A program made the translations under genes and the position numbers. The notes beneath the pieces were generated by a model. It saw nothing but the letters and a program-made list of their open reading frames with translations, ran no database searches and had not been told where the DNA came from. Below, piece after piece: positions 8,651 to 37,343 of a DNA stretch of 64,000 bases. The stretch comes from Alicyclobacillus sp. (GTDB lineage Bacteria; Bacillota; Bacilli; Alicyclobacillales; Alicyclobacillaceae). The stretch is taken from assembly GCA_023511295.1 (NCBI GenBank), contig JAIMBT010000015.1:1-64000 (forward strand), in the 5' to 3' direction. The first letter of the stretch is position 1. Each line of letters begins with the position of its first letter.

Positions 8651-8693
8651 TGTGACCTAGGTCACGGCACTGCCGGCTTCCTCGCCGTATCGT
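8651..8693 (+). promoter_or_regulatory. Crp/Fnr-type site and promoter of the left DUF2249 operon
   Basis: TGTGA-CCTAGG-TCACG (8651-8666) contains a perfect 14-bp palindrome. A TATCGT -10 candidate at 8688-8693 puts the predicted start near 8700, about 41.5 bp from the site centre, the class II activator position. No good -35 is present, as expected for an activator-dependent promoter. Confidence 0.65.
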
Positions 8694-9411: not shown

Positions 9412-9476
9412 TACCGCAACCCAACCCGGACCCGGCTGGCACAGACCGATTCGCAGCCACACAGGGGGCAAACGAC

Positions 9477-16286: not shown

Positions 16287-16582
16287 AAGCCCAGCATCTC
16301 CCGCGCCTCTTCGGACATCATCTCCGGTGTCCACGGCGGGTCCCACACCACTTCCACCTGCACCATGGCGACGCCAAAGGCCTGCGCCGCGGCCCATTCG
16401 ACGCTCTGGCTGATGTTGTCGTGCGCGGGGCAACCCGGCGTCGTCATCGTCATCTCGATGTACAGGCTTCCTTCTTCGACTTCCTCCAGTTTGTAGATGA
16501 GCCCGAGGTCGACGACGTTGATCCCGATCTCCGGGTCGTACACTTCCTTCAACTTCTCCCGTACAGCCTCCAAGTCAATCAC
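16283..16582 (-). CDS. MIP18/DUF59 family Fe-S assembly protein
   Basis: A 99-residue protein with the DUF59 core: VYDPEIGINVVDLGLIY, MTMTTPGCPAHD and VWDPPWTPEMMSEEAREMLG. SufT/PaaD relatives help to mature Fe-S proteins, and the conserved Cys is present in PGCPAH. A GTG start with GGGAG about 10 nt upstream is used. It overlaps the end of the NnrS-like gene and the start of the kinase gene, so all three are co-transcribed. Confidence 0.92.
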   Translation of the reverse strand: MIDLEAVREKLKEVYDPEIGINVVDLGLIYKLEEVEEGSLYIEMTMTTPGCPAHDNISQSVEWAAAQAFGVAMVQVEVVWDPPWTPEMMSEEAREMLGL

Positions 16583-17891: not shown

Positions 17892-17933
17892 TTCCGACAC
17901 CTCCCCTCTGACACCGTCCGGCCAGGAGACCCG

Positions 17934-18797: not shown

Positions 18798-18840
18798 AGG
18801 GTAGCACGGCTGCAGTGTGCCCGATGTGCTGTGGGTCACA
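18798..18840 (-). promoter_or_regulatory. Crp/Fnr-type site and promoter, minus-strand arm
   Basis: On the minus strand, TGTGA-CCCACA-GCACA covers 18840 down to 18825; one half is imperfect. A weak -10 (TACCCT, 18803-18798) places the start near 18791, about 41.5 bp from the centre. It would drive the DUF2249 gene at 18463-18732 and the genes beyond. Confidence 0.5.
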
Positions 18841-18881: not shown

Positions 18882-18924
18882 TGTGATGTGCGTCACGATC
18901 TCGCCGTTCGCCGTATCGTACAGT
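18882..18924 (+). promoter_or_regulatory. Crp/Fnr-type site and promoter, plus-strand arm
   Basis: TGTGA-TGTGCG-TCACG (18882-18897) with a TACAGT -10 candidate (18919-18924) gives a predicted start near 18931, about 41.5 bp from the centre. The sequence around the -10 (CGCCGTATCGT) also occurs at the 8651 promoter, suggesting duplicated promoters. Confidence 0.6.
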
Positions 18925-20098: not shown

Positions 20099-21379
20099 TC
20101 ACGCTGCCGCGCGGGGCGCAAACGCCCACTGTGCGAGGAAGGCGATGGCACTGAGCGCCGCCAAACTGCCGCCGACCGCGAGCAACCCCGTGGACACGGC
20201 CCCACCCGCCGCCAACCGCAGAAACGCGACCGCCATCAACAGCACGCCGAGGATGCCAGCGGCCACCTGGGCGACCGCCCACCCAGCCGGCGGGCGTCGC
20301 CGCCGCAGCACGTACGGGAACAGCGCGTGCCCGACGCCGTACACGAGGTTCGTCGCGAACCCCAGGAACAGCAGGTGCAACGCGGCGAGCGACAACGGCG
20401 GCAGGCCAAGCAGCAGGCCGATGCCGAGGATGAAGCTGTACACCCACGCGGCCCCCCACGCCAAGCGGCTGGCTGTCCATCCATCCGGCCGCTGCGACCC
20501 GGGCTGCCCGCCGCCCCACAGCCAGCGCAGGGTCACCGCCGCCCAGAGGGCGAACACGAGGCCCAGCAGGCGGAACGCCGCGTCGGCCAGCCAGGCCGGC
20601 CCGACCAAACCTGCTGCCCCGAGAACGGTGGCTATGCCCCAGCCCACCTGCAGGGCGCCGAACATGCGGCCGGACGGGCCCGAAACACCGGCGAAGCGCG
20701 GGAACAGGTGCAACGAGACGGAGAGGACGGTGCCCGCAATCCAACCGTAGTACGTGACAAATGCCGGTGCCGGCGCCAACGCCGCCAGAGGGCTTGTCCA
20801 CGCCCGCACCATCGTCCAACCCGCGGCGAGCAGAAACAGCATCAGCGAGATGTCCGTCCCGCGTTGGGCGACCTTGTCCGTGCGCTGGTAACGGTCGCTG
20901 CGCTGGAGGTAGGCGAGTGGGTGACCTTCGTCCATGGCCATCTCCATCCGGCCGCCCGGGCGGCGCGCTGCGAACACCGCAGACAGGATGTTCACCAGAA
21001 ACACCGCCGGCGCTGCAAATTGGAGCGTATAGCCGAGTCGAAGCAACAGCGGATTCCCTGCCGCGAGCCCACCCACCACGGCGACCACGGCGCTTTCCGC
21101 CACTGCGAGTTGGAACCAACCCACCCACGCCCGCGGCGGGCGAAGCCCAGCCGAGATGGCGAGCACCGCATAGGTCATCCCGTAGATGAGCAGCGTCAGC
21201 CAGCCGAACGGGTTGATCTCCCCGTGGATGGCCCCGACCGTTCCCCACGTCCCCGGGTCGTTCGCCATCCACCCGCCGAGGCCCGCACCGACCACGAAGT
21301 TGACGAAGCTGCACGCGACAAACCCCTTCGGGAGCCATCCCATCCAGTCGTCCCGACCCATCCGTCCATCACGCGCCAC
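20099..21379 (-). CDS. NnrS-like/oxidase subunit I-like membrane protein (paralogue C)
   Basis: A 426-residue protein with about 12 helices, more divergent than the other two. Segments with His include GAIHGEINPFGWLTLLIYGM, LSVSLHLFPRFAG and LAALHLLFLGFATN followed by GVGHALFPYVL. The pattern resembles haem-binding helices of NnrS or nitric oxide reductase-like proteins, but no complete haem-copper site (His-Pro-Glu-Val) is present. The GTG at 21379 overlaps the crp-type gene; an ATG six codons later is the alternative start. Confidence 0.65.
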   Translation of the reverse strand: MARDGRMGRDDWMGWLPKGFVACSFVNFVVGAGLGGWMANDPGTWGTVGAIHGEINPFGWLTLLIYGMTYAVLAISAGLRPPRAWVGWFQLAVAESAVVAVVGGLAAGNPLLLRLGYTLQFAAPAVFLVNILSAVFAARRPGGRMEMAMDEGHPLAYLQRSDRYQRTDKVAQRGTDISLMLFLLAAGWTMVRAWTSPLAALAPAPAFVTYYGWIAGTVLSVSLHLFPRFAGVSGPSGRMFGALQVGWGIATVLGAAGLVGPAWLADAAFRLLGLVFALWAAVTLRWLWGGGQPGSQRPDGWTASRLAWGAAWVYSFILGIGLLLGLPPLSLAALHLLFLGFATNLVYGVGHALFPYVLRRRRPPAGWAVAQVAAGILGVLLMAVAFLRLAAGGAVSTGLLAVGGSLAALSAIAFLAQWAFAPRAAA

Positions 21380-22049
21380 CGTTCAACCGCTCCAGGTGCA
21401 GCACCCACTCGTCCCGCTCGCCGCTCAGTACGCCGTCGCGCCGCAGTTGGTTCCAGATGCGGTTCACCGACTCGCGCGTCATGCCAATCATGTGCGCCAT
21501 CTCGCCGTGCGTGATGGGCAGCTTGACGTAGACGCCGTCTGGACCCGGGGTCCCGTGTTCCTCCGCGAAGTGGCGCAACAGGGCTATCACCCGGTCGTGC
21601 GAGTCGTACACCGCCAGCTCCTGCAGCTTTGCCTGCAGCATCAAGATGCGCTCCCCCATCACGCGCATCACCTTGCGGGCGATATCGGGGTGGTCCGTGA
21701 GGAGCGCGTCGAAGTTCTGGCAGCGGATGGAGAGCAGGTCGCTCGCCTCCATCGCCTGCGCGGTGCCGGGGTACGGGCCATCCTGAAAGAACCCGACGTG
21801 CGGAAACATCTGGCCGCGGCCAAGGATGTTCACGATGTGTTCACGGCCTTCCTCGTCGACTTTCAGCACCTTTATCAGCCCGCGGCGAATGAAGTACACG
21901 GCCTCCCGCTCCTGGCCTTCCATGAACACGTACTCGCCGCGGCTGTAGTGGCGCTCCGCCGCCAAGCTGGAGACGCGCTCCAACTCGGCCGACGTCAGAT
22001 CTCGAAACAGCGAGATCTCACGCAACACCTCCAGCGCACCCTGTGGCAA
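21369..22049 (-). CDS. Crp/Fnr-family transcriptional regulator
   Basis: 226 residues. The N-terminal cyclic-nucleotide-binding fold (EYVFMEGQEREAVYFIRRG) is joined by a long helix to a winged helix with recognition helix MTRESVNRIWNQLRRDG. Its R-E---R pattern is that of Crp, which reads TGTGA. Only one Cys is present, so it is not an Fe-S sensor like Fnr and may sense haem, NO or redox differently. TTG is chosen with GGGAGG 9 nt upstream. It is co-directional with the membrane gene at 20099 and lies between the island and the oxidase operon whose promoters carry TGTGA sites. Confidence 0.92.
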   Translation of the reverse strand: MPQGALEVLREISLFRDLTSAELERVSSLAAERHYSRGEYVFMEGQEREAVYFIRRGLIKVLKVDEEGREHIVNILGRGQMFPHVGFFQDGPYPGTAQAMEASDLLSIRCQNFDALLTDHPDIARKVMRVMGERILMLQAKLQELAVYDSHDRVIALLRHFAEEHGTPGPDGVYVKLPITHGEMAHMIGMTRESVNRIWNQLRRDGVLSGERDEWVLHLERLNGGA

Positions 22050-22124
22050 TCTGTTCGACCTCCCTTCGGCAGTCGGAATGGGGATAAAACGCCAATCTGC
22101 AACCAGAGTGGCCCGACTGCCCAA

Positions 22125-22224: not shown

Positions 22225-23157
22225 TTACACCACTGCGCACAGAGCCATCGCTGTGAACACGGCCGGCAGGTACAACAGCGACGCGAAGAAGGTGCGCTTC
22301 GCCCAAGCCATCTCGCTGTCCGGCTCGCGCAACAGGCGAAGGTTCACGTACAGAAACCAGCCCCCGAAAGCCGCCGCCACGACGGCGTACACCAGCGGGG
22401 ACCGCATGGCGGGTGCCATCGCGACAGACACCGCCAGCAACGCGACCGCGTAGGCCACCATCTGCCGCTTGGTCGCGCGGGCACCGCGGACGACGGGCAT
22501 CATCGGTACACCGGCTCGGGTGTAGTCCTCGTTCTTATACAGCGCTAAGCCCCAGAAGTGGGACGGCGTCCAGAGGAAGATGACCGCGAACATCAGGACG
22601 GCCATCCAGCTCAGGTGATCCGTCACCGCCGCAACGCCGACGAGCGGCGGAAATGCGCCGGCGCCGCCGCCGAGCACGATGTTCTGCGGCGTGTGCCGTT
22701 TCAGCAGCATCGTGTAGACGACACCGTAGTACACGTACCCGGCGCCCGCCAACCAGGCGGACAGCGCGTTGACGGTCGTTGCCAAAAGGACCACCGAGGC
22801 GACGCCGAGCAGCAACGCGAATCCGAAGGCAGCCGGCGCGCTCACGATACCGGCGGGCAGCGGCCGTTTCGCCGTGCGGGTCATCACGGCGTCGATGTCG
22901 CGGTCAAACCACATATTGAGCGCAGCAGACCCGCCCGCCGCGAGCCCAAGCCCCAACAACCCGAGAAGCGTCACGCGGAAGTTCGGCAAACCGCCCGCCG
23001 CGACAATCATCGCGGCGTAACCCGTGAACACCAGCAGCACCACGATGCGCGGTTTGGTCAGGGTCAGGTACGCCTTCGCTGCTGTGCGGAGGTCGCTGCG
23101 GGTCAGCCCGTGTACCGCAGCGACGTGCTCCGCTCGAACCGTGGCCATCTCGCTCAC
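22225..23157 (-). CDS. ctaB: Protohaem IX farnesyltransferase (haem O synthase)
   Basis: This 310-residue polytopic UbiA-family prenyltransferase attaches farnesyl from farnesyl diphosphate to haem B, giving haem O. The two Asp-rich motifs are visible: NMWFDRDIDAVMTRT and the KNEDYTRAGVPM segment, with TPSHFWGLAL between. It directly follows qoxD with an overlapping start (GTGA); an ATG three codons in is the alternative. The need for farnesyl ties it to the mevalonate operon upstream in the window. Confidence 0.95.
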   Translation of the reverse strand: MSEMATVRAEHVAAVHGLTRSDLRTAAKAYLTLTKPRIVVLLVFTGYAAMIVAAGGLPNFRVTLLGLLGLGLAAGGSAALNMWFDRDIDAVMTRTAKRPLPAGIVSAPAAFGFALLLGVASVVLLATTVNALSAWLAGAGYVYYGVVYTMLLKRHTPQNIVLGGGAGAFPPLVGVAAVTDHLSWMAVLMFAVIFLWTPSHFWGLALYKNEDYTRAGVPMMPVVRGARATKRQMVAYAVALLAVSVAMAPAMRSPLVYAVVAAAFGGWFLYVNLRLLREPDSEMAWAKRTFFASLLYLPAVFTAMALCAVV

Positions 23158-23495
23158 CCGACCTGCGCCATGAACGCCGGGAAACTCATAATCCAGACGG
23201 ACATCAGCGCAATCGCAAAGGTGAACAGCAAGCCGAGAATCAGGAACACGGAGTGAAAGGGCGGGCCGTCGCCTTCCGTCACGTGCATGAAGAAATACAG
23301 CTGAACCACAATCTGCAGAGCAGCCAACACGGTGAGCACCACGACCAGCGGGCCCACTGGCAAGGTGTGCTTGACGAGCGCGAGAAGAAACGCGATGGCC
23401 GTCAACACCAGAGACGATGCGTAGCCGACGATGTACTTCGTCGCTTTGTGTTTGTGACCGCCGCTTGAAGGCATTGCGCCGCTAGGGACTGCCAT
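23154..23495 (-). CDS. qoxD: Quinol oxidase subunit IV
   Basis: A 113-residue protein with three helices and the family's VVQLYFFMHVTEGDGPP motif. Subunit IV stabilises the oxidase complex. GGGAGG precedes the ATG. Its stop overlaps ctaB. Confidence 0.93.
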   Translation of the reverse strand: MAVPSGAMPSSGGHKHKATKYIVGYASSLVLTAIAFLLALVKHTLPVGPLVVVLTVLAALQIVVQLYFFMHVTEGDGPPFHSVFLILGLLFTFAIALMSVWIMSFPAFMAQVG

Positions 23496-23496
23496 C

Positions 23497-24126
23497 TCAC
23501 ATCACCCTCCCGGACAGGTACACAATCGTGAAGATGAACACCCAGACCACGTCGAGGAAGTGCCAGTACAGGTTGACCACGAACACCTTGCGCGCGGTAA
23601 CCTTCGTAATACCCCGGCGCGCGACCTGGAGCAACGTCAGGAACATCCAAACCAACCCAATCGACACGTGGCTTCCGTGCGTACCGACAAGCGTGAAGAA
23701 CGCCGACAGGAAAGCGCTGCGTTGCATCGTCGCCCCGACCGCGACGTCACCGACAAACTCCTTGACTTCAAACCCGATAAACGCGAGGCCGAGCAGGATG
23801 GTGACCGCGAGCCACGTCATCAGCCACTTGCGGTTGCCGTTGCGCATCGCAAGGGTGGAGAGCCCACCTGTGAAGCTGCTGGTCAGAAGGAAGAACGTCT
23901 CCAGGGTGAACCCGGGAATATCGAACAACTGCTGCGGCGTCGGGCCGCCGTCGGTGTGCGTGCGCACCACCAGGTAGGTGGCGAACAGGCACCCGAACAG
24001 CAACATGTCCGTCGCAAGGAACAGCCAAAAGCCCAATATCTTGACAGATTGATTCGGGTCTCGATACTCGAGCGGCTTCTCGTCAATCCCGGTCGGGTTG
24101 TGCACCGCGTGCTCCATGACCGCCAT
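23497..24126 (-). CDS. qoxC: Quinol oxidase subunit III
   Basis: 209 residues, five helices, with the typical ILGFWLFLATDMLLFGCLF and GTHGSHVSIGLVWM segments. It belongs to the short subunit III type (five helices) seen in quinol oxidases. The ATG overlaps the qoxB stop by one base and has GGGAGG 8 nt upstream. Confidence 0.95.
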   Translation of the reverse strand: MAVMEHAVHNPTGIDEKPLEYRDPNQSVKILGFWLFLATDMLLFGCLFATYLVVRTHTDGGPTPQQLFDIPGFTLETFFLLTSSFTGGLSTLAMRNGNRKWLMTWLAVTILLGLAFIGFEVKEFVGDVAVGATMQRSAFLSAFFTLVGTHGSHVSIGLVWMFLTLLQVARRGITKVTARKVFVVNLYWHFLDVVWVFIFTIVYLSGRVM

Positions 24127-26099
24127 CAGGACAACCTCCCAAGCGCCGCTTCGTGCGACTGCACTTCGCGGACCGGAATGTGGTACTCATCGTCGTACTC
24201 CAGCGCCCGCGCAATCATGCACGCAGCGACGCCAGCCAAGCCGAGGACAATGAGAGGCCACCAGACAAACACGAAGCCAAAACCAGCGACGAAGAACGAC
24301 AGCCCCATCAGGAACGGGCGACCAGAGTTCTTCGGCATGTGAATCGGTTGGATGTCTTTCGCCTTCGGCCGCAGTTCGTCCGTACGGCCCTCCTCCTTCA
24401 ACACCCACCACATGTCGCGGTCGGTCACCGTCGGGATGACCGCAAAGTTGTAGTGCGGTGCGGGAGACGGCAAGGACCACTCCAGCGTGCGGCCGTCCCA
24501 CGGGTCACCGGTCAAGTCGCGCTCGCCGTGCTTGATGCTATAGACGACCTGCACCACAATCACCACGAACGCAATCCCCATCACGTAGGCGCCAATCGTC
24601 GAGACGAGGTTCAGCGTGTTCCACCCCATCGTCGCCGGGTAGGTGTACATCCGCCGCTGCATGCCCATGAAGCCGAGCGCGTACTGCGGCATGAAGCAGA
24701 CGTAGAAACCGATGTTGAACAGCCAGAAGGCAATCCGGCCGAGCCGCTCATCCAGCTTGAAGCCGAACATCTTCGGCCACCAGTAGTACATGCCGGCAAT
24801 CATTCCGAACACCACGCCGCCAATCAGGACCTGGTGGAAGTGGGCAATCAGGAAGTAGCTGTTGTGGTACTGGTAATCCGCCGGAGCGGCAGCGAGCATC
24901 ACGCCGGTGGCGCCACCGATGACGAAGCAGGGTACGAACGCAATCGTCCACAGCATCGGCAAGGTCATCCGGATGCGCCCTTGGAACATCGTGAACAGCC
25001 AGTTGAACACCTTCACGCCGGTCGGAATACCGACCATCATCGACGCAATCGCGAAGAACGTGTTGACGTCCGCGCCGGCGCCCATCGTGAAGAAGTGGTG
25101 GGCCCAGACGAAGTAGCTGATGACGCTGATGAGCATCAGCGACGCCACCATGGAGGAGTAGCCGAACACGCGCTTGCGCGCAAACGTCGCCACAACCTCT
25201 GAGTAGACACCGAACGCAGGCAGGACGACGATGTACACCTCGGGGTGACCCCACAGCCAGAACAGGTTGACGAACATCATCGGGTTGCCGCCGTGCAGGA
25301 TGGTGAAGAAGTGCGTGCCGACCACGCGGTCCAGCATCAGCAGCGCCAGGGCAATCGCGAGCGCAGGGAACGCGAAGATGATGACGATGGACGCGGCCAC
25401 GACGGACCACGAGAACAGCGGCATCCGCATCAGCTTCATCCCCGGCGCCCGCATTTTGAAGATGGTGGCCAGGAAGTTGATGCCCGTCGCAATCGAGCCG
25501 ATACCGGAGATCTGGATGGCCAAGAGGTAATAGTTCTCGCCCGGGCCTGGGTCAAACCCCAACTCAGAGAGCGGCGGGTAGCTCACCCAGCTGGCATCCG
25601 GCGAACCGCCGAACACGAACGACAGGTTGAACAGCATCGCCCCGAAGAAGAACAGCCAGAACGAGATGGCGTTCAAGTACGGGAACGCGACGTCACGCGC
25701 ACCAATCTGGAGCGGGACGACGATGTTGAAGAGCGCGAAGATGAACGGCATGGCCATGAACAAAATCATGATGGTTCCATGCGTCGTAAAGATCTGGTCG
25801 TAGTGGTCGGCCGTCAAGAAGTGGTTGTTCGGCACGGCCAACTGCGTCCGCAGCAATTCGGCGTCTGCGCCGCCCCGGAACATCATGAGCAGCGCACAAA
25901 TCAGGTACATGATGCCGATCCGCTTGTGGTCGACCGTCGTAATCCACTCCCGCCACAGCCACTTCCACTTGTGAAAGTAAGTGAGCGTGAAGATGATCCC
26001 GATGGACACGAGCAAAATCAGGACATCCGAACCCCAGATCATCGGGCCTTCCTGCCACATCAGGTATTTGTCCGCGAATGCGTGAAACCACGATGGCAT
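24126..26099 (-). CDS. qoxB: aa3-type quinol oxidase subunit I
   Basis: 657 residues. It holds the haem-copper centre: WGHPEVYIVVLP (CuB His and cross-linked Tyr), the HH pair in VWAHHFF, HFHQVLIGG for the haems and the low-spin haem His in TTHGTIMILF. Quinol-site residues known from cytochrome bo3 are conserved (Arg75 and Asp79 in FRGGAD, His99 and Gln102 in DHYDQ). It therefore oxidises quinol, not cytochrome c. GGGGGAG precedes the ATG. Confidence 0.97.
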   Translation of the reverse strand: MPSWFHAFADKYLMWQEGPMIWGSDVLILLVSIGIIFTLTYFHKWKWLWREWITTVDHKRIGIMYLICALLMMFRGGADAELLRTQLAVPNNHFLTADHYDQIFTTHGTIMILFMAMPFIFALFNIVVPLQIGARDVAFPYLNAISFWLFFFGAMLFNLSFVFGGSPDASWVSYPPLSELGFDPGPGENYYLLAIQISGIGSIATGINFLATIFKMRAPGMKLMRMPLFSWSVVAASIVIIFAFPALAIALALLMLDRVVGTHFFTILHGGNPMMFVNLFWLWGHPEVYIVVLPAFGVYSEVVATFARKRVFGYSSMVASLMLISVISYFVWAHHFFTMGAGADVNTFFAIASMMVGIPTGVKVFNWLFTMFQGRIRMTLPMLWTIAFVPCFVIGGATGVMLAAAPADYQYHNSYFLIAHFHQVLIGGVVFGMIAGMYYWWPKMFGFKLDERLGRIAFWLFNIGFYVCFMPQYALGFMGMQRRMYTYPATMGWNTLNLVSTIGAYVMGIAFVVIVVQVVYSIKHGERDLTGDPWDGRTLEWSLPSPAPHYNFAVIPTVTDRDMWWVLKEEGRTDELRPKAKDIQPIHMPKNSGRPFLMGLSFFVAGFGFVFVWWPLIVLGLAGVAACMIARALEYDDEYHIPVREVQSHEAALGRLS

Positions 26100-26118: not shown

Positions 26119-27081
26119 TTACTTGCCGGATGCGCTGTTGCTGGAGCTGCTCATGCCAGCCATGTTGCTCGCGCTCGCCGCGTTCATCGGCGACCCGGTC
26201 TGGTTCATCATGCCGGGCATGTACTGTCCACCGTCGGCCCAAACGGTGTCGTTGAACAGGTGCGCGGGGTACGAAGCGTAAGACGACGTCCCGACGACGC
26301 TCGGCTGCTTCAACTTCTGGTAACCCGCCTTGGTCAGTTGTTGCGACGACGACTGCACCTGGTGCACCCATCCGTTGAAATCCGCGTCCGACTTGGCAAT
26401 GACGTTGAAGTCCATGTGCGCGAACCCAGAACCGGTGAAGTTGGCGCCGTGGCCGTAGTACGTTCCCGGCTTGTCAGCCTGCAGCCACAGCCGCATCGCC
26501 ATCCCCGGCATGGTGTACTCCTGCCCGCCGAGCTGCGGAACCCAGAACGAGTTCATCGGCGCGTCCGACGTCAGCTCGAACTGTACCGGCACGCCGGTCG
26601 GAATCTCGGCGTAGTTGACGGTCGCGATGTGCTGGTCTGGGTAGAGGAACAACCACTTCCAGTCCAGGGAGACGACCTGAATCGTCAAAGGTTTCACCTG
26701 CTGGTCCTCCGCTGGCGGCTTCACCAGTGCAAACGTCGTCTTCGCCGTGAACACGCCGAGAACGGCCACGATGACGACCGGAATCCCCCACCAGATGAAC
26801 TCGAGCACCTTACTCTCTGACCACTTCGGCTTATACGGCGCCGTGTTCCCCGGCTTGTCTCGGTACCGCCAGACGATGAAGGCCAGTAAGAACAATACAG
26901 GGACAATCACAATCCCGACCAAAATGGCGGATAGGACGATGAGGTGGAGTTCTTCCCGACCGACGGGCCCGACTGGGTTGAGGACCAAGTACTGCGGTCC
27001 GCATCCGGTCAAGAACAGCGTCAACACCGCTGCGCTGAAGACCACCGTGCGTACTCGACGCGGGCGATGTTCCCTCCGCAA
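26119..27081 (-). CDS. qoxA: Quinol oxidase subunit II (lipoprotein)
   Basis: A 320-residue protein with a lipoprotein signal ending in LFLTGC, two membrane helices and a cupredoxin-like domain (SFWVPQLGGQEYTMPGM, GSGFAHMDF). The CuA Cys and His ligands are absent at this site, confirming a quinol oxidase. A long Ser/Met-rich C-terminal tail (NMAGMSSSSNSASGK) is unusual. The TTG start is chosen because GGAG lies 9 nt upstream. It heads the qoxABCD-ctaB operon. Confidence 0.95.
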   Translation of the reverse strand: MRREHRPRRVRTVVFSAAVLTLFLTGCGPQYLVLNPVGPVGREELHLIVLSAILVGIVIVPVLFLLAFIVWRYRDKPGNTAPYKPKWSESKVLEFIWWGIPVVIVAVLGVFTAKTTFALVKPPAEDQQVKPLTIQVVSLDWKWLFLYPDQHIATVNYAEIPTGVPVQFELTSDAPMNSFWVPQLGGQEYTMPGMAMRLWLQADKPGTYYGHGANFTGSGFAHMDFNVIAKSDADFNGWVHQVQSSSQQLTKAGYQKLKQPSVVGTSSYASYPAHLFNDTVWADGGQYMPGMMNQTGSPMNAASASNMAGMSSSSNSASGK

Positions 27082-27196
27082 TGCCGCTCACTCCTTTGCG
27101 CGTTCCATCCCAAGGCGTGGGGCCAAGCGCCAGATGACTCGCGCGGTTCCGCTGTCCATCGGCTCATTCCCCGTGGTAACGCCTGGTTGCAGGGTC

Positions 27197-27240
27197 ACTA
27201 TATCGGCCGCGAAGAGAACGGACGTGTGCGCTACATCACA
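27197..27240 (-). promoter_or_regulatory. Crp/Fnr-type site and promoter of the qox operon
   Basis: On the minus strand, TGTGA-TGTAGC-GCACA spans 27240 to 27225. TATAGT at 27202-27197 is a good -10, giving a start near 27190, about 42.5 bp from the site centre. This is class II activator geometry. Confidence 0.65.
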
Positions 27241-27348
27241 CTTTCCCCGCCAGGTCGACGGGTGTTCACAAACTGTTCGTGAGCCCTCGGAAAACGCCCG
27301 GAAGACCCGTGGCGATTCTGTGACGGTGCGCGCGCGTTGCCCGCAGGG

Positions 27349-27392
27349 TGTGATCTAGATCAAACCGAGCACCCGTCCCTCACGCGCATGAT
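27349..27392 (+). promoter_or_regulatory. Crp/Fnr-type site and promoter of the mevalonate operon
   Basis: TGTGA-TCTAGA-TCAAA (27349-27364) also reads as an Fnr-like TTGAT-related palindrome. CATGAT (27387-27392) is a -10 candidate with a predicted start near 27399, about 42.5 bp from the centre. AGGAGG follows 8-9 nt before the GTG start of mvaA. Confidence 0.6.
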
Positions 27393-27427
27393 GATCTCGC
27401 AAGATACTGTGAAGGAGGCGGAACGCC

Positions 27428-28744
27428 GTGACCAACGCCCGCATCCCGGGTTTCTATAAAATGAACGTGGATGAGCGCCTGCGCAAGCTGCGGCAGGCTC
27501 GTCCCATTCCGCTTCGCGACCTGTACGCACTGACGTCTGAAACCGCCGCCCTCCCGTTTGAGACGGCGAACCACATGATTGAGAACGCCATCGGCGTGTA
27601 TCCGCTGCCGCTCGGCGTCGCGCTCAACTTTCAAATCAACGGCAAGGACTACCTGGTCCCGATGGCGATTGAAGAGCCGTCCGTGGTTGCATCCGCCAGC
27701 CACATTGCGAAACTCGTTCGCGAAGCGGGCGGATTCACCGCGGAAGCCACAGAGCGGGAAATGATTGGGCAGATTCAAGTGGTTGGCTGCCCGAACCTGG
27801 AGGCCGCGACAGAGATTCTGCTCCAGCGCGAAGCGGAGTTGGTTGCGCTGGCAAATGCAGCGCATCCGTCCATGCAGGCGCGCGGTGGCGGTGCCAAGCA
27901 CCTGCAGGTGCGGGTGGTCGGCGAGGCGGGAACCGCTCGCCACAGTCAGATGCTGGTTGTGCACCTGCTCGTCGACACATGCGACGCGATGGGCGCCAAC
28001 GTTGTCAACACGATGGCGGAGGCGATTGCACCCAGGGTCGAAGAGCTGACGGGCGGCAAGGTCTACCTGCGCATCCTCTCCAACTACACGACCGGGTGCC
28101 TCGCGAGAGCCCGCTGTATCATCCCGCCAGAACAACTGGCGACGCGCGGTTACACCGGCGAGCAGGTGCGCGACGGGGTGTTGTGTGCCTATCGGTTCGC
28201 GGTTTCCGACGTGTACCGCGCGGTCACCCACAACAAGGGCGTCATGAACGGGATCGACGCGGTGGTGATGGCGACTGGCAACGACTGGCGTGCGATTGAG
28301 GCAGGTGCGCACGCCTACGCCGCACGTTTTGGGTCGTACGCGCCGATGACCGAGTGGCGCGTGGATGAACTCGGCCGTCTCGTCGGGAGCCTGGAGTTGC
28401 CGATGCCGGTGGGGACGGTCGGCGGCAGTATTGGCATCCACCCGATGGCCCGCTTCGCCCGCGACCTGCTGAACGTCCGGTCCGCGGCGGAACTGGCCCA
28501 GGTGGTGGTGGCCGTCGGACTCGCACAGAACCTCGGCGCCCTCAAGGCCCTCGCCACAGACGGCATCCAGCGCGGGCACATGGCACTTCATGCCCGGTCC
28601 ATCGCGATGGCCGCCGGCGCGACCGGTGAGATGGTGGAGCAAGTGGCCGCACGCCTGACGGAGTTGCGGGACTTCAGCCTGGACCGGGCCAAGGAACTCG
28701 TGCAGGCGCTGCAGGCCCCGCGTCTGACCCATGCGGTTCGGTAG
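27428..28744 (+). CDS. mvaA: Class II HMG-CoA reductase
   Basis: 438 residues. It converts HMG-CoA to mevalonate (biosynthetic) or the reverse. Motifs fit bacterial class II enzymes: ENAIGVYPLPLGVALNF, EEPSVVASAS, DTCDAMGANVVNTMAE, MATGNDWRAIEAGAHAYAAR and the catalytic His in GHMALHAR. Together with the next three genes it makes the classical mevalonate route to isopentenyl diphosphate; no HMG-CoA synthase or IPP isomerase is in the window. The GTG start follows AGGAGG. Confidence 0.96.
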   Translation: MTNARIPGFYKMNVDERLRKLRQARPIPLRDLYALTSETAALPFETANHMIENAIGVYPLPLGVALNFQINGKDYLVPMAIEEPSVVASASHIAKLVREAGGFTAEATEREMIGQIQVVGCPNLEAATEILLQREAELVALANAAHPSMQARGGGAKHLQVRVVGEAGTARHSQMLVVHLLVDTCDAMGANVVNTMAEAIAPRVEELTGGKVYLRILSNYTTGCLARARCIIPPEQLATRGYTGEQVRDGVLCAYRFAVSDVYRAVTHNKGVMNGIDAVVMATGNDWRAIEAGAHAYAARFGSYAPMTEWRVDELGRLVGSLELPMPVGTVGGSIGIHPMARFARDLLNVRSAAELAQVVVAVGLAQNLGALKALATDGIQRGHMALHARSIAMAAGATGEMVEQVAARLTELRDFSLDRAKELVQALQAPRLTHAVR

Positions 28745-29810
28745 AAGTGGACCCGCCGGCACAACCGGGAGGGGTGTCGCACACGGGAAGGCCATCCTCC
28801 TCGGCGAACACGCGGTCGTGTACGGGCAACCGGCGCTGGTCATCCCGCTCGTCCGTTTACGGGTCGCGGCCGCCGTCGACGCGCCGGGCATTGCCGTCCC
28901 AAACGACCGGTGGCGACATGCGGCGGACGGGGTGACTTGGTGGGTGGACAGCTCTGTGTACCGCGGCCCGTTGGACCGCACGCCAGAGGCTTTGCGGGGC
29001 CTGCAGTCGTGCATCCAGGCGTGGCTGTCGGACCACCGCCAACGCGGCGCAGCAGCCGGGCCACATGTCATCACCATCCGCGCGAACCTCCCCATCGGAC
29101 GTGGCCTCGGATCCAGCGCCGCGGCGGCGGTAGCTGTGCTGCGGGCACTGGCGTCCTGGGCCGGCGACGAGGCGGCGGACGAGGCGCTCCGGCCATACGT
29201 CGATCAAGCGGAGGCAGCGACGCATGGCCGCGCCAGCGGCGTCGATGCAGCCGCCGTCTTGGCCGCTACGCCGCTGTGGTACACGTCCGGCCAACCGGCG
29301 CGGATGGATGCCGGGCCGAGGACGTTCCATTTCGTCCTGGCGGACACCGGGGTGCCAGGACAGACTCGCGCTGCGGTGGCCCAGGTGCGTATTCGTATGC
29401 AGGCGCAGCCTGCGGCGACGCGCGTACGCGTCCGCCGCTTGGGCAGGTTGGCGGAAGACGCAAAGGAAGCGTGGCTGGCGGGGGACGACTTGGCGGTCGG
29501 CGCGGCGATGGACGAGGCGCAAGCGGCCTTGGCCGATCTCGGCGTCAGCCACCCAGCGTTGGATGGTTTGGTCCGGGCCGCCCGTGCGGAAGGGGCCCTG
29601 GGGAGCAAGCTGACCGGCAGTGGATGCGGCGGCTGCACCATCAGTCTGGCTCAATCCGCGGAGCACGCCGCCTCCCTGTCGCGAGCGCTGCTCGCATCGG
29701 GTGCCACCCAGACGTGGTGCGTGGAGATCCCGGGGCACACGGCCGGCACAGATCAATCGCTACGGAAAGGGTGGGGTACCGGTGGAAGCGACAGCGCGTG
29801 CGCACAGTAA
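28731..29810 (+). CDS. mvk: Mevalonate kinase
   Basis: A 359-residue GHMP kinase that phosphorylates mevalonate. The motifs are GKAILLGEHAVVYGQPALVI, GRGLGSSAAAAVAV (ATP-binding loop) and KLTGSGCGGCTIS. It overlaps the 3' end of mvaA by 14 nt and extends 29 nt into the decarboxylase gene. No strong ribosome binding site is seen, consistent with coupling. Confidence 0.92.
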   Translation: MRFGRSGPAGTTGRGVAHGKAILLGEHAVVYGQPALVIPLVRLRVAAAVDAPGIAVPNDRWRHAADGVTWWVDSSVYRGPLDRTPEALRGLQSCIQAWLSDHRQRGAAAGPHVITIRANLPIGRGLGSSAAAAVAVLRALASWAGDEAADEALRPYVDQAEAATHGRASGVDAAAVLAATPLWYTSGQPARMDAGPRTFHFVLADTGVPGQTRAAVAQVRIRMQAQPAATRVRVRRLGRLAEDAKEAWLAGDDLAVGAAMDEAQAALADLGVSHPALDGLVRAARAEGALGSKLTGSGCGGCTISLAQSAEHAASLSRALLASGATQTWCVEIPGHTAGTDQSLRKGWGTGGSDSACAQ

Positions 29811-30765
29811 CATCGCCCTCGTGAAGTACTGGGGCAAGCGAGACGAGACGCTCGTGTTGCCGATGCACGGCAGTGTGTCGCTGACCCTCGACGCGTTGTC
29901 GACCACGACCACCGTTCGTTTCGCGCCGCATCTCCAGCAGGACGTGGTGGTCATCGACGATGCACCCGCCTCGCCAGCGTCGCAGCGCCGCGTCTCTGCC
30001 TTCTTGGACCGAGTCCGCCAGCGCAGTGGTACACGTTCGTTCGCGGAAGTGGTGTCCCACAACACCATGCCCGTTGGAAGCGGGCTCGCGTCGTCCGCCT
30101 CGGCATTCGCGGCGTTGGCCGCGGCTGCAGTGGGCGCGCTCGGGCTCGAGCTCTCCCCGACAGACCTCTCGAAACTGGCGCGACAAGGTTCCGGCTCCGC
30201 CTGCCGCTCCATCTACCCCGGGTTTGTCGAATGGCGACAGGGTGAACGGCCAGACGGCGAGGATTCCTACGCTGTCCCACTGCATCCGGGCGGTGCGTGG
30301 GACGTGCGCTGTCTGATGGCAGTGGTCTCCGACGCCCCGAAACCGGTAAGCAGCCGCGAGGGGATGAGACGGACGGTGGAGACATCGCCGCTCTACGCGA
30401 GCTGGCTGTCCAGCGTCCCACGCGACCTCGCGGCCGTCCGCCAAGCGGTGGCGACCCGCAATTTTTCACTGCTCGGTGAGACTGCGGAACGCAACGCCCT
30501 CAAAATGCACGCGACCGCGCTGGCGGCGGAGCCACCCATCTTCTACTGGCGCCAGGAGACCGTCGCCGCCATCGAAGCGGTCTGGGCGCTGCGCAACCGC
30601 GGTGTCCCCGCTTACTTCACCATCGACGCTGGCCCGAACCTGGCGGTGCTGTGCCAGCCGTCGTCTGTCGACGAAGTGGCACGCGCTCTGAGGCAGGTCC
30701 CCGGCGTGACCTCCCTTATCTCCGCCAAGCCTGGCCCCGGCGTCGAGCTGCTGAAGGGCAGGTGA
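29782..30765 (+). CDS. mvaD: Diphosphomevalonate decarboxylase
   Basis: 327 residues; makes isopentenyl diphosphate from mevalonate diphosphate. Hallmarks are ARAHSNIALVKYWGKRDE, the GHMP loop VGSGLASSASAFAAL and GSGSACRSIYPGFVEW, with the catalytic Asp in FTIDAGPN. The GTG is chosen because AAGGGTGG is upstream. Its end is 5 nt before the phosphomevalonate kinase ATG. Confidence 0.95.
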   Translation: MEATARAHSNIALVKYWGKRDETLVLPMHGSVSLTLDALSTTTTVRFAPHLQQDVVVIDDAPASPASQRRVSAFLDRVRQRSGTRSFAEVVSHNTMPVGSGLASSASAFAALAAAAVGALGLELSPTDLSKLARQGSGSACRSIYPGFVEWRQGERPDGEDSYAVPLHPGGAWDVRCLMAVVSDAPKPVSSREGMRRTVETSPLYASWLSSVPRDLAAVRQAVATRNFSLLGETAERNALKMHATALAAEPPIFYWRQETVAAIEAVWALRNRGVPAYFTIDAGPNLAVLCQPSSVDEVARALRQVPGVTSLISAKPGPGVELLKGR

Positions 30766-30770
30766 ACGAT

Positions 30771-31928
30771 ATGGGGTCAATCTGCACAACCGCGCGTGCC
30801 CCTGGGAAGCTCATCCTCGCTGGCGAGTACGCCGTAACGGAGCCCGGCCAACCGGCGCTGGTCGCAGCGGTGAACCGATTCCTGACCGTCCACATTCGCT
30901 CGGCTGGCCGCAGCGGACGGGCGCAGCACGGGTGGACCTGGTCCGGCGACACCTGGCAAGTGCCGGCTCGCGGCCAGAGCCAGTCCCTGCGCTTCGTCGA
31001 TGCCGCGGTATCCGTCGTACGAGCGTATCTCGGCAGCTGGACTGAGGGTGAGTCGGTCTGTATCGAGATCGACAGCGAGTTGGACCGTTCAGACGGGAGA
31101 AAGTACGGCCTCGGGTCGAGCGCTGCGGTCGTCGTCGGAGTGGTCGCCGCTCTGCTCGCGCACTTCGGCGCGGGTGGCTCGCCGGGGATGGCGGCCGCAT
31201 GGCCCTCGTTCCAGGAGGTCGTGTTCAAGCTGTCGGCCTTAGCCCACACGGCGGTTCAGGGGAACGGCTCTGCCGCAGACGTCGCAGCGGCGGTATACGG
31301 AGGCGTCATCGAGTACACCGCTGCAGACCCCGTGTGGATCCGTTCCGCGCTGGGGCAACCCGCGTTCCCGCGCGATGTCCGCCGCACCGTCGCACAGGCC
31401 TGGCCCCGGTGGACAGTCGCCCCAGTTCCCTGGCCCACTGCGCTCCAGTTCTCCGTCGGCTGGACTGGGCAGGCCGCCAGCACGGCGCGGATGCTCGAGG
31501 ACGTCAGCCGCTGGCGCGCTCGCAACCCTGCTTCCTACCGCCGGTTTCTGGACGTAAGTGCGCCGGCCGTGCGCGCGCTGACCGCCGCGCTGCGGGACGG
31601 CGACACCGCCGGTGTCCTCCACGCCCTACGCCGAAGCCGACGCAACCTGGCAAACCTCGGCGCACAGTCCGGTGTGGGGATTGAGACGCCGCAGCTACGC
31701 GCGTTGGCGGAAGCCGCCGAGCGCTTCGGCGGTGCGGGAAAGCTGTCCGGAGCCGGCGGTGGCGATTGCGGCATCGCCGTGCTGCCGTCGTCCCAAACCC
31801 CCGCCTGCCTGTTCGACGCATGGCGAGCCGCGGGGATTGAGCCGCTCGACCTGCAAGTGACACCGGCTGGCGTACACATTCTCTCCGATGGGAGTGTTCT
31901 TTGTGCGAATCCCAAACTTTCGATCTGA
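30771..31928 (+). CDS. mvaK2: Phosphomevalonate kinase
   Basis: 385 residues. This GHMP kinase adds the second phosphate (ARAPGKLILAGEYAV, KYGLGSSAAVVVGV, QGNGSAADVAAAVYGG and KLSGAGGGDCGIAV). It follows mvaD directly and overlaps the methyltransferase gene by 26 nt. Identity within the kinase group rests on gene order plus the N-terminal signature. Confidence 0.92.
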   Translation: MGSICTTARAPGKLILAGEYAVTEPGQPALVAAVNRFLTVHIRSAGRSGRAQHGWTWSGDTWQVPARGQSQSLRFVDAAVSVVRAYLGSWTEGESVCIEIDSELDRSDGRKYGLGSSAAVVVGVVAALLAHFGAGGSPGMAAAWPSFQEVVFKLSALAHTAVQGNGSAADVAAAVYGGVIEYTAADPVWIRSALGQPAFPRDVRRTVAQAWPRWTVAPVPWPTALQFSVGWTGQAASTARMLEDVSRWRARNPASYRRFLDVSAPAVRALTAALRDGDTAGVLHALRRSRRNLANLGAQSGVGIETPQLRALAEAAERFGGAGKLSGAGGGDCGIAVLPSSQTPACLFDAWRAAGIEPLDLQVTPAGVHILSDGSVLCANPKLSI

Positions 31929-32688
31929 AGCCGGTAGCATTCTCTACAAAAACACCGTCGGTCGCCGCATCTCCCCCCGCGTCGCGCAGCTCCTGCTGCA
32001 GCAGGCAGAGACGGTCATGGCGAGCCAACCCGTACACGACGTGCTCGATCTCGGCTGCGGCCCGGGCACGGTCAGCCTGACCCTCGCAGCCCGGTATCCG
32101 ACGTTGCACATCGAGGCGACGGACGCGTCTGCCGCGATGGTCGACCTCGCTCGAGCCGAGGCGGAGCGTCTAGGCCTGTCCAACCTCACATTCGCCGAAG
32201 CGAACGCCAACCACCTGGAGCTGCCGCCGGCGTCCTTTGACCTCGTCGTCTGCAACTTAGCGTTCCCGTTCTTCCCGCGACCCTACGAGAGCATGGCCGC
32301 GGTCGCCGACCTTCTGCGTCCTGGCGGAACCGCCTGCTTCACCGTCCCTGGCGCGCGCACCTGGGAGGCGTTCTTTGCCGTGGCCGAGACCGTGTTCGGT
32401 GACAGCGTCCGCGTCGCCCGCCCGTTTCTCGTGAAGTTTCAGCAGGCAGAAGTGTTGCCGGATGCCCTTGCGAAGGCGGGATTCCACGACGTGACGGAGA
32501 CGCGAACCCTGCTTCCGTTCTCGTTTGACTCCGGTGAGGCGGTCCTCCGCTTCTTCACCGAGCTGTTCCACCTGCTCGACAGCGCGACACCCGACATGCG
32601 AGCCGAACTCGCAGATGCGGTGGACCGTCTGCACCCGAATGGGTTCACCATGCACTACGAGGCAGTGCTGCTGACTGCGGGAACTTGA
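31903..32688 (+). CDS. SAM-dependent methyltransferase, class I
   Basis: 261 residues. The Rossmann methyltransferase motif I is VLDLGCGPGTVSLTLA, followed by ATDASAAM and the acidic motif VVCNLAFPFF. Product or substrate cannot be read. It ends the mevalonate operon, so a terpenoid or quinone methylation is possible but unproven. The GTG at 31903 is preferred for its GGGAG; an ATG at 31888 is in frame. Confidence 0.85.
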   Translation: MRIPNFRSEAGSILYKNTVGRRISPRVAQLLLQQAETVMASQPVHDVLDLGCGPGTVSLTLAARYPTLHIEATDASAAMVDLARAEAERLGLSNLTFAEANANHLELPPASFDLVVCNLAFPFFPRPYESMAAVADLLRPGGTACFTVPGARTWEAFFAVAETVFGDSVRVARPFLVKFQQAEVLPDALAKAGFHDVTETRTLLPFSFDSGEAVLRFFTELFHLLDSATPDMRAELADAVDRLHPNGFTMHYEAVLLTAGT

Positions 32689-32756: not shown

Positions 32757-33800
32757 CTACTCCCGCGCCAGGAGGTTTTGTACGCCAGCTGCCAAACGAC
32801 GGTACGGGGAAGGCCGCTTCGCCGATTCCGTTGCGGAAACAGGCCGGTTGCGGCGGCGCGTGTGTGACGTCAACAGGCCGCGGATGACGCAGTTTTCGGC
32901 GTCCTCCGCCACCTGAATCGGCATCTCGGTCGCACGGCGCAGGCGCTCCATTAAGCCGGAAAGTTGTGCGCCCGCACCGGAGACGACAATGCCGCACTCC
33001 ATGAAGTCGCCCACCAACTCCGGCGGAGCGGACTCGAGTGTATCGACGAGTAGACTGACAATCGCGTCGCTGTAACTCTCGACTTGTGAGGCGACCAACG
33101 CCCGCGGCACAAGCAGCGACTCTGGCAGTCCGTTGCCGAGGTTGCGGCCCCGCACTTCAAAGTCCTTCGTGTCTGCAGACGCGCCGGCAGCGCACTTCAG
33201 CTGCTCAGCCGTCTTGATACCAATCAAAAACCCGTATTCTCGGCGCACCGCTTCCGCGATGGCTCGGTCCAAATTTCGGCCGCCCACCGCCGCCTTGCGG
33301 GCGTCGACGATGCCACCCAGCGAGACCACCGCTGCTTCCGTCACCCCGGCCCCGAGGTTCAGAACGAGCGTCCCGCGCGGCGCCGCAACCGGAAGGCCGG
33401 CACCGATAGCGGCGGCAATCACCGTTTCGAACAAACGGACCTGTTTCGCACCGGCGGCCCGTACGGCCTCTTCGACCGCGCGGCGCTCGACGGCCGTCAA
33501 GCCCGTAGGAACCGAGACGGTGACGTTCGACCGCCGAGATAGCTTACCGCCTTCCACCAAAGACAACGCGTAGCGGATGAGTTGGACCGCAGCGTCAAAC
33601 TCCTTGACCACCCCTCCGTCGATGGGGTGAACCACGGACACCCCTCTGGGGGCTCGTCCCACCAATTGCTCCGCGAAGACCCCCGCCCGGCAGGTCCCCT
33701 GTTCGTCAACCGACACCGTGGCCGGCTCTGACCAAATCTGTTCATGGCCCAACACACCCACGCGAAATCTGGAGGTCCCTAGGTCCAAGGCGATGTCCAC
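32757..33800 (-). CDS. MreB-like actin homologue with an altered ATPase motif
   Basis: 347 residues. The actin-fold motifs are ALDLGTSRFRVG (phosphate 1), VHPIDGGVVKEFDA, AAAIGAGLPV and GGRNLDRAIAE. In phosphate-2 the usual Asp of VDIGGGTTE is Asn148 (LNLGAGVTE), and the first Gly triad is broken. The catalytic Glu125 is kept. It may bind ATP without normal turnover, or be a regulatory paralogue of cell-shape MreB. GTG with AGGGAGGG decides the start. Confidence 0.85.
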   Translation of the reverse strand: MDIALDLGTSRFRVGVLGHEQIWSEPATVSVDEQGTCRAGVFAEQLVGRAPRGVSVVHPIDGGVVKEFDAAVQLIRYALSLVEGGKLSRRSNVTVSVPTGLTAVERRAVEEAVRAAGAKQVRLFETVIAAAIGAGLPVAAPRGTLVLNLGAGVTEAAVVSLGGIVDARKAAVGGRNLDRAIAEAVRREYGFLIGIKTAEQLKCAAGASADTKDFEVRGRNLGNGLPESLLVPRALVASQVESYSDAIVSLLVDTLESAPPELVGDFMECGIVVSGAGAQLSGLMERLRRATEMPIQVAEDAENCVIRGLLTSHTRRRNRPVSATESAKRPSPYRRLAAGVQNLLARE

Positions 33801-35560: not shown

Positions 35561-35680
35561 TCGCTCGACCGGCTGAATCCCCTTCGGGGGAGCGGGGGAA
35601 CCAGTTTTGGGGTGAAACGCCACGCGTGGGGCAAACCTTTCTGCCCTAACCCGTCAGCTAACCTCGTAAGCCGATAGAAA
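35561..35680 (+). promoter_or_regulatory. Cyclic di-AMP (ydaO/yuaA-type) riboswitch
   Basis: The conserved aptamer pieces are in order: CGGCTGAATCC, GGGGGAACCA, TTGGGGTGAAACGCC, AACCTTTCTGCCC and CGTCAGCTAACCTCGTAAGC. The terminal CGGCT and AGCCG pair as P1. This class binds c-di-AMP and usually turns off K+ uptake or cell-wall genes. AAGGAGAGG for the next frame follows immediately, so translational control is possible. The class is identified by sequence motif, not by covariance model. Confidence 0.9.
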
Positions 35681-35694
35681 GGAGAGGTTACCGC

Positions 35695-35954: not shown

Positions 35955-37343
35955 ATGCGAAGAGAGAGAACCAATCTGGTTGAAGATGCGCCGTTTCGTC
36001 CATTTCACTTGAAACTCACGCTGTACTCGTCGGGCGGGCCGTTCCTCGACGGGTACATCCTGAGCATCATCGCCATTGCGTTGACCCAAATCGGGCCGCA
36101 GCTTCACCTGAACGCGACCTGGAGCGGCCTGATTGGAGCGTCGGCGCTGATTGGCATCTTCATCGGCGGCCTGTTCGGATACGTGACCGACAAGTTCGGT
36201 CGCCAGCTGATGTACACCGTCGATTTCATCCTGCTGATTGTGGCATCCATCTTGCAATTCTGGGTCCAGTCAGGCTGGGAATTGTTCGTGATTCGACTGA
36301 TATTGGGGATTTCCGTCGGCGCCGACTACCCTATCGCGACGTCACTGTTGACGGAGTTCGCACCGCGAAAGCACCGGGGCATGATGCTCGGCGTCACGCT
36401 GGTGGCATATTACGTGGGGTCGACCGTCGCGTACGTTGTCGGCGAAGCCATGCTGGGTCTCGGCCCCGATGCGTGGCGCTGGATGCTGGCCAGCAGCGCT
36501 GTCCCGGCCATCATCCTGGTCCTGTTGCGCTTGGGCACGCCGGAATCGCCGCGTTGGCTCCTCCAACACGGTGAGCGTGACAAGGCGGAACGGGTTCTCA
36601 AACAGGTTTACGGGCCGCAGGCGTCCATCGACGACATCGCGTTGCCGGACATGGAGCAGCGGCGCACCAGTTATCTGAAGTTGTTCACGCGCGGCTACAT
36701 CAAGCGCACGCTGTACGTCGGGTTGTTCTACATGGCCGCTGTCGCCCCGCTGTTTGCGATGCTGACGTTTGGGCCGGAGATGCTCACGTCCTATCACCTG
36801 TTCACAGGCGCGGACGGTTACGGCGCAGCCATCATCAGTGCACTGTTCCTGATTGGTTGTATCCCGGCGTTGTTCCTCGTGAACAAACTGGGTCGCCGGT
36901 TGATGATCATCACGTCTTTTGCCGGCATGACCGTCGGTATCGCACTGCTCGGCTTGTTCCCGCACGGGCCACTCGCCCTCATCCTGCTGGGCTTTGTGGT
37001 CTACGCCATCTTCTCGGGCGGGCCGAACGTCATGGAGTGGCTCGCACCGAACGAGCTCTTCCCGACGGAGGTCCGGGGCACCGCCGTCGGCGTCACCACC
37101 TGTATCAGCCGGTTCGGTGCCGTGTTTGGAACGTACCTGTTCCCGTGGGGTCTGAAGAACTTCGGTATCGGGCCGACGATGTTGGTCGGCGCCTTGGTGA
37201 CCCTCGGGGGGTTGATTGTCTGCATCCTGCTCGCACCGGAGACGACGAACAAGACGTTAAACGCAGCCAGCAGCACGGAATACAGCAGCCGACGCCAGCC
37301 CCCCTCCGGGGTCCGACAACGGATACAGGCTGGCGGACGGTAA
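35955..37343 (+). CDS. MFS transporter (sugar/aromatic acid porter type)
   Basis: 462 residues, 12 helices. MFS motif A occurs twice, GYVTDKFGRQ and VNKLGRRLMI, with GADYPIATSLLTEF and PESPRWLLQHGE as in the sugar-porter/aromatic acid groups. Substrate unknown. AAAGGAG precedes the ATG. It lies downstream of the c-di-AMP riboswitch, with about 270 nt between. Confidence 0.88.
   Translation: MRRERTNLVEDAPFRPFHLKLTLYSSGGPFLDGYILSIIAIALTQIGPQLHLNATWSGLIGASALIGIFIGGLFGYVTDKFGRQLMYTVDFILLIVASILQFWVQSGWELFVIRLILGISVGADYPIATSLLTEFAPRKHRGMMLGVTLVAYYVGSTVAYVVGEAMLGLGPDAWRWMLASSAVPAIILVLLRLGTPESPRWLLQHGERDKAERVLKQVYGPQASIDDIALPDMEQRRTSYLKLFTRGYIKRTLYVGLFYMAAVAPLFAMLTFGPEMLTSYHLFTGADGYGAAIISALFLIGCIPALFLVNKLGRRLMIITSFAGMTVGIALLGLFPHGPLALILLGFVVYAIFSGGPNVMEWLAPNELFPTEVRGTAVGVTTCISRFGAVFGTYLFPWGLKNFGIGPTMLVGALVTLGGLIVCILLAPETTNKTLNAASSTEYSSRRQPPSGVRQRIQAGGR

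Follow-up and report, generated by a model that had tools for sequence, protein, structure and literature searches.

The 64,000-nucleotide stretch of DNA from an Alicyclobacillus sp. analysed here (hereafter the window; G000:C11:1-64000, where G000 is a 3.43-Mb draft genome of 42 contigs with 99.6% completeness) carries two divergent gene clusters, one for a quinol oxidase and the other for the mevalonate pathway. On the minus strand, qoxA-qoxB-qoxC-qoxD-ctaB run from position 27081 down to 22225, followed by the gene for a CRP/FNR-family regulator and then by that for a membrane protein. On the plus strand, mvaA, mvaK1, mvaD, mvaK2, and a methyltransferase gene (27428-32688) are arranged such that neighbours overlap or lie 5 nt apart. 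The start codons of qoxA and mvaA are separated by a gap of 346 bp (27082-27427), on each side of which we found one CRP-type site with a single mismatch, as stated in the original prediction that both operons diverge from a 346-bp region with a Crp/Fnr-type site for each. Judged from these predicted elements, shared control of the qox and mva operons is likely.

All four mevalonate-pathway genes passed their curated cut-offs: mvaA for a class II 3-hydroxy-3-methylglutaryl-coenzyme A (HMG-CoA) reductase (27428-28744, plus strand; TIGR00532, 412.1 bits; Protein Data Bank (PDB) entries 6dio, E = 1.3e-132, and 1qax, E = 4e-131), mvaK1 for mevalonate kinase (28731-29810, plus; TIGR00549, 237.4 bits), mvaD for diphosphomevalonate decarboxylase (29782-30765, plus; TIGR01240, 322.8 bits; PDB 5v2l, E = 1.9e-87), and mvaK2 for phosphomevalonate kinase (30771-31928, plus; TIGR01220, 300.9 bits; PDB 3k17, E = 1.1e-56, and 1k47, E = 4.5e-24). 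The last gene of the operon (31888-32688, plus; PF13649) encodes a predicted S-adenosylmethionine-dependent methyltransferase, which the original prediction had listed as being of unknown kind: its PDB matches are to diverse methyltransferases, and no specific family could be assigned. BioC, the best NCBIfam match, was rejected at 81.6 bits against a cut-off of 184.95, as was MenG/UbiE at 41.8 bits against 158.35. No counterpart was detected at the operon end in nine related mevalonate loci (from genomes G061-G069, chosen from 80 loci), one of which, L015, lies on a contig that stops inside mvaK2.

On the oxidase side, ctaB for heme O synthase (22225-23157, minus strand) passed its cut-off (TIGR01473, 312.3 against 210.3 bits), and all four QoxABCD subunits failed the NCBIfam Qox equivalog cut-offs, A, B, and C narrowly. 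The scores were 228.2 bits against 240.95 for the QoxA model with qoxA (26119-27081, minus, with a TTG start; just under the cut-offs of the QOXA/CyoA models), 1001.5 against 1015.5 for qoxB (24126-26099, minus; TIGR02882), 233.8 against 239.9 for qoxC (23497-24126, minus; TIGR02897), and 46.8 against 85.6 for the QoxD model with qoxD (23154-23495, minus; PF03626, with the CyoD/QoxD models below cut-off). The qox names are kept here as those of the closest predicted kind, not as passed equivalogs. QoxA has a single cysteine, at residue 27, and hence no CuA cysteine pair in subunit II, which fits the expectation for a quinol oxidase. Two further qox operons of G000 lie at C35:143960 and C42:97981 (L152 and L153); neither has a CRP-type site at one mismatch, and a CtaA-like protein is encoded close to the C35 copy.

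The CRP-type site on the qox side, TGTGATGTAGCGCACA when read toward qoxA (27225-27240, minus strand), is preceded at a distance of 32 nt by a TTTGTGAACA box (27263-27272, minus) and followed, 22 nt past the site, by the predicted -10 hexamer of qoxA, TATAGT (27197-27202, minus; five of six matches). We take the TTTGTGAACA box to be ResD-like; a search for a ResD motif yielded no paper. The module recurs in relatives. We compared 28 qoxA upstream stretches other than that of the window (25 loci; two of the stretches belong to the further qox copies of G000). A site of this type with at most one mismatch was present in 13 of them, no more than about 160 nt from the assigned start in 12 cases and at 306 nt in L162. 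A TAnnnT hexamer stands 21 or 22 nt past the site in ten of the 12 foreign qox promoters listed, and the exact sequence TTTGTGAA at -31 or -32 from the site in six of the 13.

On the opposite side, the site of the mva operon, TGTGATCTAGATCAAA (27349-27364, plus strand), also reads as TTGAT-N4-ATCAA with one mismatch. It is preceded at 32 nt by a TCTGTGAC box (27317-27324, plus), two mismatches away from TTTGTGAA, and followed at 22 nt by the predicted -10 hexamer of mvaA, CATGAT (27387-27392, plus; four of six matches). We built a promoter matrix from 11 foreign qox promoters (the 13 minus two near-duplicates, with the window's own promoter excluded) and scanned both strands of the window, about 127,800 positions. 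The qox promoter ranked first with 38.4 bits and the mva site facing mvaA second with 6.1 bits; read in the opposite orientation, the mva site ranked 54th. Most of its matrix score came from the core, and with the core masked the mva flanks fell in the top 3.3%. Of all positions in the window, 0.017% combine a box with at most two mismatches at -31/-32 and a hexamer matching at least four of six positions at +21/+22; these thresholds were set once the mva site was known. At the level of sequence, both sides of the gap have the layout of a class II CRP-type promoter, with the site about 22 nt before TATAGT or CATGAT and a transcription start predicted about 6-7 nt past each hexamer.

CRP-type sites are also more frequent in this DNA than expected. 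The pattern TGTGA-N6-TCACA with at most one mismatch occurred five times in the window, compared with a mean of 1.67 in shuffled sequences, none of 100 shuffles reaching five, and two of the five occurrences fall in the 346-bp gap. Genome-wide, the pattern was found at 67 places and its reversed version at 25. The other three sites in the window (8651-8666, 18825-18840, and 18882-18897) lie near a membrane protein gene at 9333-10760 and genes for DUF2249 proteins. Those at 8651 and 18882, both on the plus strand, have a hexamer of at least four of six matches at the same offset, a feature of 1.4% of positions, and five and four mismatches, respectively, in the upstream box.

Several observations weigh against joint control by this module. 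The third-ranked matrix position scored 5.5 bits, leaving a small margin below the 6.1 bits of the mva site; CATGAT is a poor hexamer; and a generic sigma-70 scan of 26900-27600 found no promoter. The window's other CRP-type sites lack the upstream box (at least four mismatches), and 15 of the 28 qoxA upstream stretches, including both other G000 copies, have no site at one mismatch. The association between site and regulator is also weak: the site was present in eight of the 11 loci whose fetched stretch includes the regulator and in five of the 12 whose stretch does not, a count that leaves out the two other qox copies of G000 and in which the regulator may sit elsewhere in those genomes. 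On balance, the originally predicted joint control gained cis-element support from the recurring qox module, the second rank in the matrix scan, and the combination of box and hexamer, and it stands as a prediction from sequence.

The candidate regulator is the CRP/FNR-family protein encoded downstream of ctaB (21369-22124, minus strand; PF00027 and PF13545), which scored under every NCBIfam cut-off listed. An FNR that senses oxygen through an iron-sulfur (Fe-S) cluster uses four cysteine ligands; the protein has one cysteine only, at residue 135, and this type of sensor was ruled out. An equivalog of cAMP-CRP was rejected as well (NF008732, 92 bits against a cut-off of 266). The helix RESVNR, which we take to resemble the corresponding helix of Escherichia coli CRP, is kept in ten orthologues with 67-83% identity at the relatives' qox loci, counting rows above 60% identity. 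DUF2249 proteins and one protein weakly matching di-iron proteins of Fe-S repair are encoded in the same stretch as the regulator, a hint that the signal might be nitric oxide (NO) or redox stress. Since each promoter has the appearance of a class II CRP-type promoter, with the site centred near -41, the protein is the probable activator of the two, responding to a single respiratory signal (oxygen, NO, or redox), and would bind both sites. The membrane protein encoded beyond the regulator (20099-21379, minus) appears related to those encoded at 9333-10760 (plus) and 16575-17900 (minus), with 25-28% identity in one alignment. None of the three had a Pfam or NCBIfam match at an E-value of 0.001, and proteins of this type are encoded near qox in many relatives' loci. 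A structure model of one of these qox-neighbour membrane proteins had a mean predicted local distance difference test score of 48.0, too poor for use.

The pairing itself is not shared by relatives. The original prediction had named the gene order in related genomes as a check, and the outcome went against a kept pairing. With MvaD as a protein query, G000 alone of the 59 genomes searched in the order gave a full-length match, and six others gave partial matches of 19-22 bits; we rejected a conserved linkage of qox and mevalonate genes on this count. The original prediction had named a conserved separation of the two operons as refuting, but the other genomes searched have no full-length MvaD and offer no such pair of operons. 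The same-family qox clusters resemble that of the window: qoxABCD is accompanied in many cases by ctaB, the regulator, and membrane proteins close by. They differ in G006, G031, and G034, which hold the closest QoxB loci besides the window's own (89-91% identity; 91% to G006): in these, ctaA lies between ctaB and the regulator, whereas it is missing there in the window, and a ferredoxin gene instead of mvaA stands opposite qoxA. The qox-mevalonate pairing is particular to G000 among the genomes searched, and the CRP-type qox site is more widespread.

The ferredoxin loci bear on the possibility that the two operons are chance neighbours, in that an acquired operon landed behind an existing CRP-dependent divergent promoter, that of the relatives' ferredoxin gene, and is co-expressed without adaptive meaning. 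G006, G031, and G034 have a second one-mismatch site on the ferredoxin side, located in G006 and G034 about 60-75 bp before the gene and thus comparable to the 63 bp before mvaA, and no other genome searched in the order has a full-length MvaD. By eye, the mva and ferredoxin sides are dissimilar outside the site and the qox-proximal elements. Composition gives no clear signal of recent transfer either: the G+C content at third codon positions of the mva genes is 0.78-0.80, compared with 0.74-0.87 for their neighbours, though the codon usage of mvaK1, mvaD, and mvaK2 falls at the poor end of the neighbours' range. We regard chance neighbourhood as an unlikely explanation.

HMG-CoA reductase was detected in five of 61 genomes, namely G000, three of the order's other family (G038, G040, and G050), and G058. 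The reductases of the three are 47-51% identical to that of the window. Unlike the window's mvaA, they have no mevalonate kinase or decarboxylase genes found alongside, and they cluster in the tree with Chloroflexota, apart from the window's enzyme. We rejected an operon shared with the other family, the reductases there being solitary and of another clade. Solitary HMG-CoA reductases with a gene of the major facilitator superfamily (MFS) type nearby, at L132, L133, and L134 of the order's other family, possibly serve mevalonate breakdown.

The original prediction explained joint control by isoprenoid supply, with CtaB using farnesyl diphosphate and the quinol needing a prenyl tail. A joint control that keeps the supply of prenyl tails for heme O and menaquinone in step with oxidase synthesis would agree with the shared CRP-type sites and with the established transfer of a farnesyl group by CtaB. 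The rationale is possible but found no specific support, for G000 already holds other isoprenoid genes. Of the methylerythritol phosphate (MEP) pathway, dxr is present in 59 of the 61 genomes, including G000, and ispH in G000 too; a type 2 isopentenyl diphosphate isomerase gene, idi-2, lies outside the operon at C42:58112 (331.3 bits against a cut-off of 281.3). Furthermore, a full-length MvaD is absent from all 13 relatives whose qox promoter contains the site, and the demand for heme O is presumably small compared with the needs for undecaprenyl and quinones. Matching of prenyl supply to the oxidase thus seems an improbable rationale for the pairing.

The original prediction had also asked for idi and HMG-CoA synthase elsewhere in the genome; idi-2 was found, and the synthase, usually the first enzyme of the mevalonate route, was not. 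The best G000 score with TIGR01835 was 18.7 bits against a cut-off of 360.35, while G058 scored 517.5, and PF01154 had no match in G000. The window thus has the same mvaA, mvaK1, mvaD, and mvaK2 as the canonical mvaK1-mvaD-mvaK2 arrangement with mvaA and mvaS, but mvaS was undetected in the operon or the genome, and a methyltransferase is added. The nine genomes with related mevalonate operons gave no PF01154 match either; the positive control G058 and seven of 14 named controls matched. The full set of mvaA, mvaK1, mvaD, and mvaK2 is seen at eight of the nine loci; the ninth, L023, has mvaA, mvaK1, and idi-2. Neither dxr nor ispH was found in seven of these genomes (G061, G062, G063, G064, G067, G068, and G069); of the other two, G065 has ispH without dxr, and G066 has both. 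An mvaS-like gene was found nearby in 13 of the 80 mevalonate loci with the G058 query.

A lead for the source of HMG-CoA is leucine breakdown. On contig C36 of G000, genes for a crotonase, a carboxyltransferase, and a biotin carboxylase form a run together with that for an HMG-CoA lyase (433.7 bits, above the cut-off of 246). We take this run to be a leucine-degradation layout, and it may deliver HMG-CoA to the operon. Six of the nine operon genomes have a lyase over the cut-off, and mvaA of G064 (L010) shares 4 nt with a gene of the enoyl-CoA hydratase family. That locus, L010:9213-20341, is from a Micrococcaceae record, has this overlapping gene upstream, and carries carotenoid-type genes downstream by reading of the sequence starts. 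Several points count against a leucine-fed, synthase-less operon serving as a second route. The crotonase, carboxyltransferase, and biotin carboxylase of C36 match models of general or other name; G061, G064, and G065 have no lyase over the cut-off; and the lyase is also present in the operon-less relatives G006, G009, G020, and G024. The absence of the synthase is a result of profile searches of drafts; those of the nine come mostly from metagenomes and have no stated completeness, and some of the nine are close kin and represent fewer than nine independent cases. The MEP genes searched were two, dxr and ispH.

Possible alternatives to leucine as the source are an unrecognised synthase or mevalonate from outside. 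An operon that uses external mevalonate, or that serves a specialised and perhaps methylated isoprenoid instead of general precursor supply, would account for the undetected synthase and for the extra methyltransferase at the operon end, which the nine related loci were not found to share. The operon includes an HMG-CoA reductase, needless for uptake, and none of its five genes encodes a transporter, a terpene synthase, or a prenyl synthase; nor does the methyltransferase have a specific assignment. We consider this explanation very unlikely.

Beyond the operon, an MreB/Mbl-like gene (32757-33800, minus strand) that does not reach the NCBIfam MreB cut-offs is convergent with it, and a cyclic di-AMP riboswitch (35561-35686, plus; RF00379, 93.4 bits) lies upstream of a transporter-like gene at 35955-37343, of the MFS by inspection.

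One paper reportedly deals with the MEP pathway of Listeria under anaerobic conditions. According to passages of a 2026 review (PMC13001223), both isoprenoid pathways occur in 2.42% of 4,249 species, among them Listeria monocytogenes, Mycobacterium marinum, and some Streptomyces, and separate roles are discussed. Listeria is also discussed in a 2024 article about oxidative stress and the MEP pathway, and a 2025 study of M. marinum found the MEP pathway essential and the mevalonate pathway not. As far as these excerpts go, Listeria and M. marinum are precedents for two pathways with different roles. G000 resembles the two-pathway bacteria of the review passages in combining MEP genes with a mevalonate operon, and differs from them in the undetected HMG-CoA synthase, in the quinol oxidase cluster that diverges from the operon, and in the operon's CRP-type site. 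No coupling of the mevalonate pathway to quinol oxidase is described in the passages of the review and the 2024 and 2025 papers. Judged by titles and the beginnings of abstracts, searches of open-licence papers listed nothing like this arrangement; they covered mevalonate genes with quinol oxidase and Fnr, a lacking HMG-CoA synthase, leucine-derived HMG-CoA, also in myxobacteria, and mevalonate in Alicyclobacillus and Sericytochromatia.

The reading that we prefer takes the mva genes as a single, acquired operon that covers the steps from HMG-CoA to isopentenyl diphosphate but includes no HMG-CoA synthase. In this reading, to which we give about an even chance, the operon came to lie opposite qox under a respiratory CRP regulon and is activated together with the oxidase, perhaps as a leucine-fed, Fe-S-free second supply. 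Such an operon could supply precursors under impairment of the Fe-S enzymes IspG and IspH or under a raised demand for prenyl groups. A broader version, in which synthase-less mevalonate operons are a class fed by leucine breakdown, and the one here a respiratory-CRP-wired, Fe-S-free bypass switched on with the oxidase when oxygen or NO threatens IspG and IspH, is doubtful at present. The wiring is supported in silico, and the physiology is inferred. Two features would draw a specialist's attention, the undetected synthase and the pairing's absence from the relatives searched. As no synthase was detected either here or in any of the nine genomes with related operons, where bacteria obtain HMG-CoA becomes a testable question. 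G000 is also a case in which to ask why some bacteria maintain two isoprenoid routes: its second route lies behind a promoter comparable to a recurring respiratory promoter, so that the conditions calling for it can be read out. The genome already carries genes of one route and probably switches on the operon of the other from the control region of a respiratory oxidase, through a regulator of the same kind, which suggests a backup isoprenoid supply tied to respiration.

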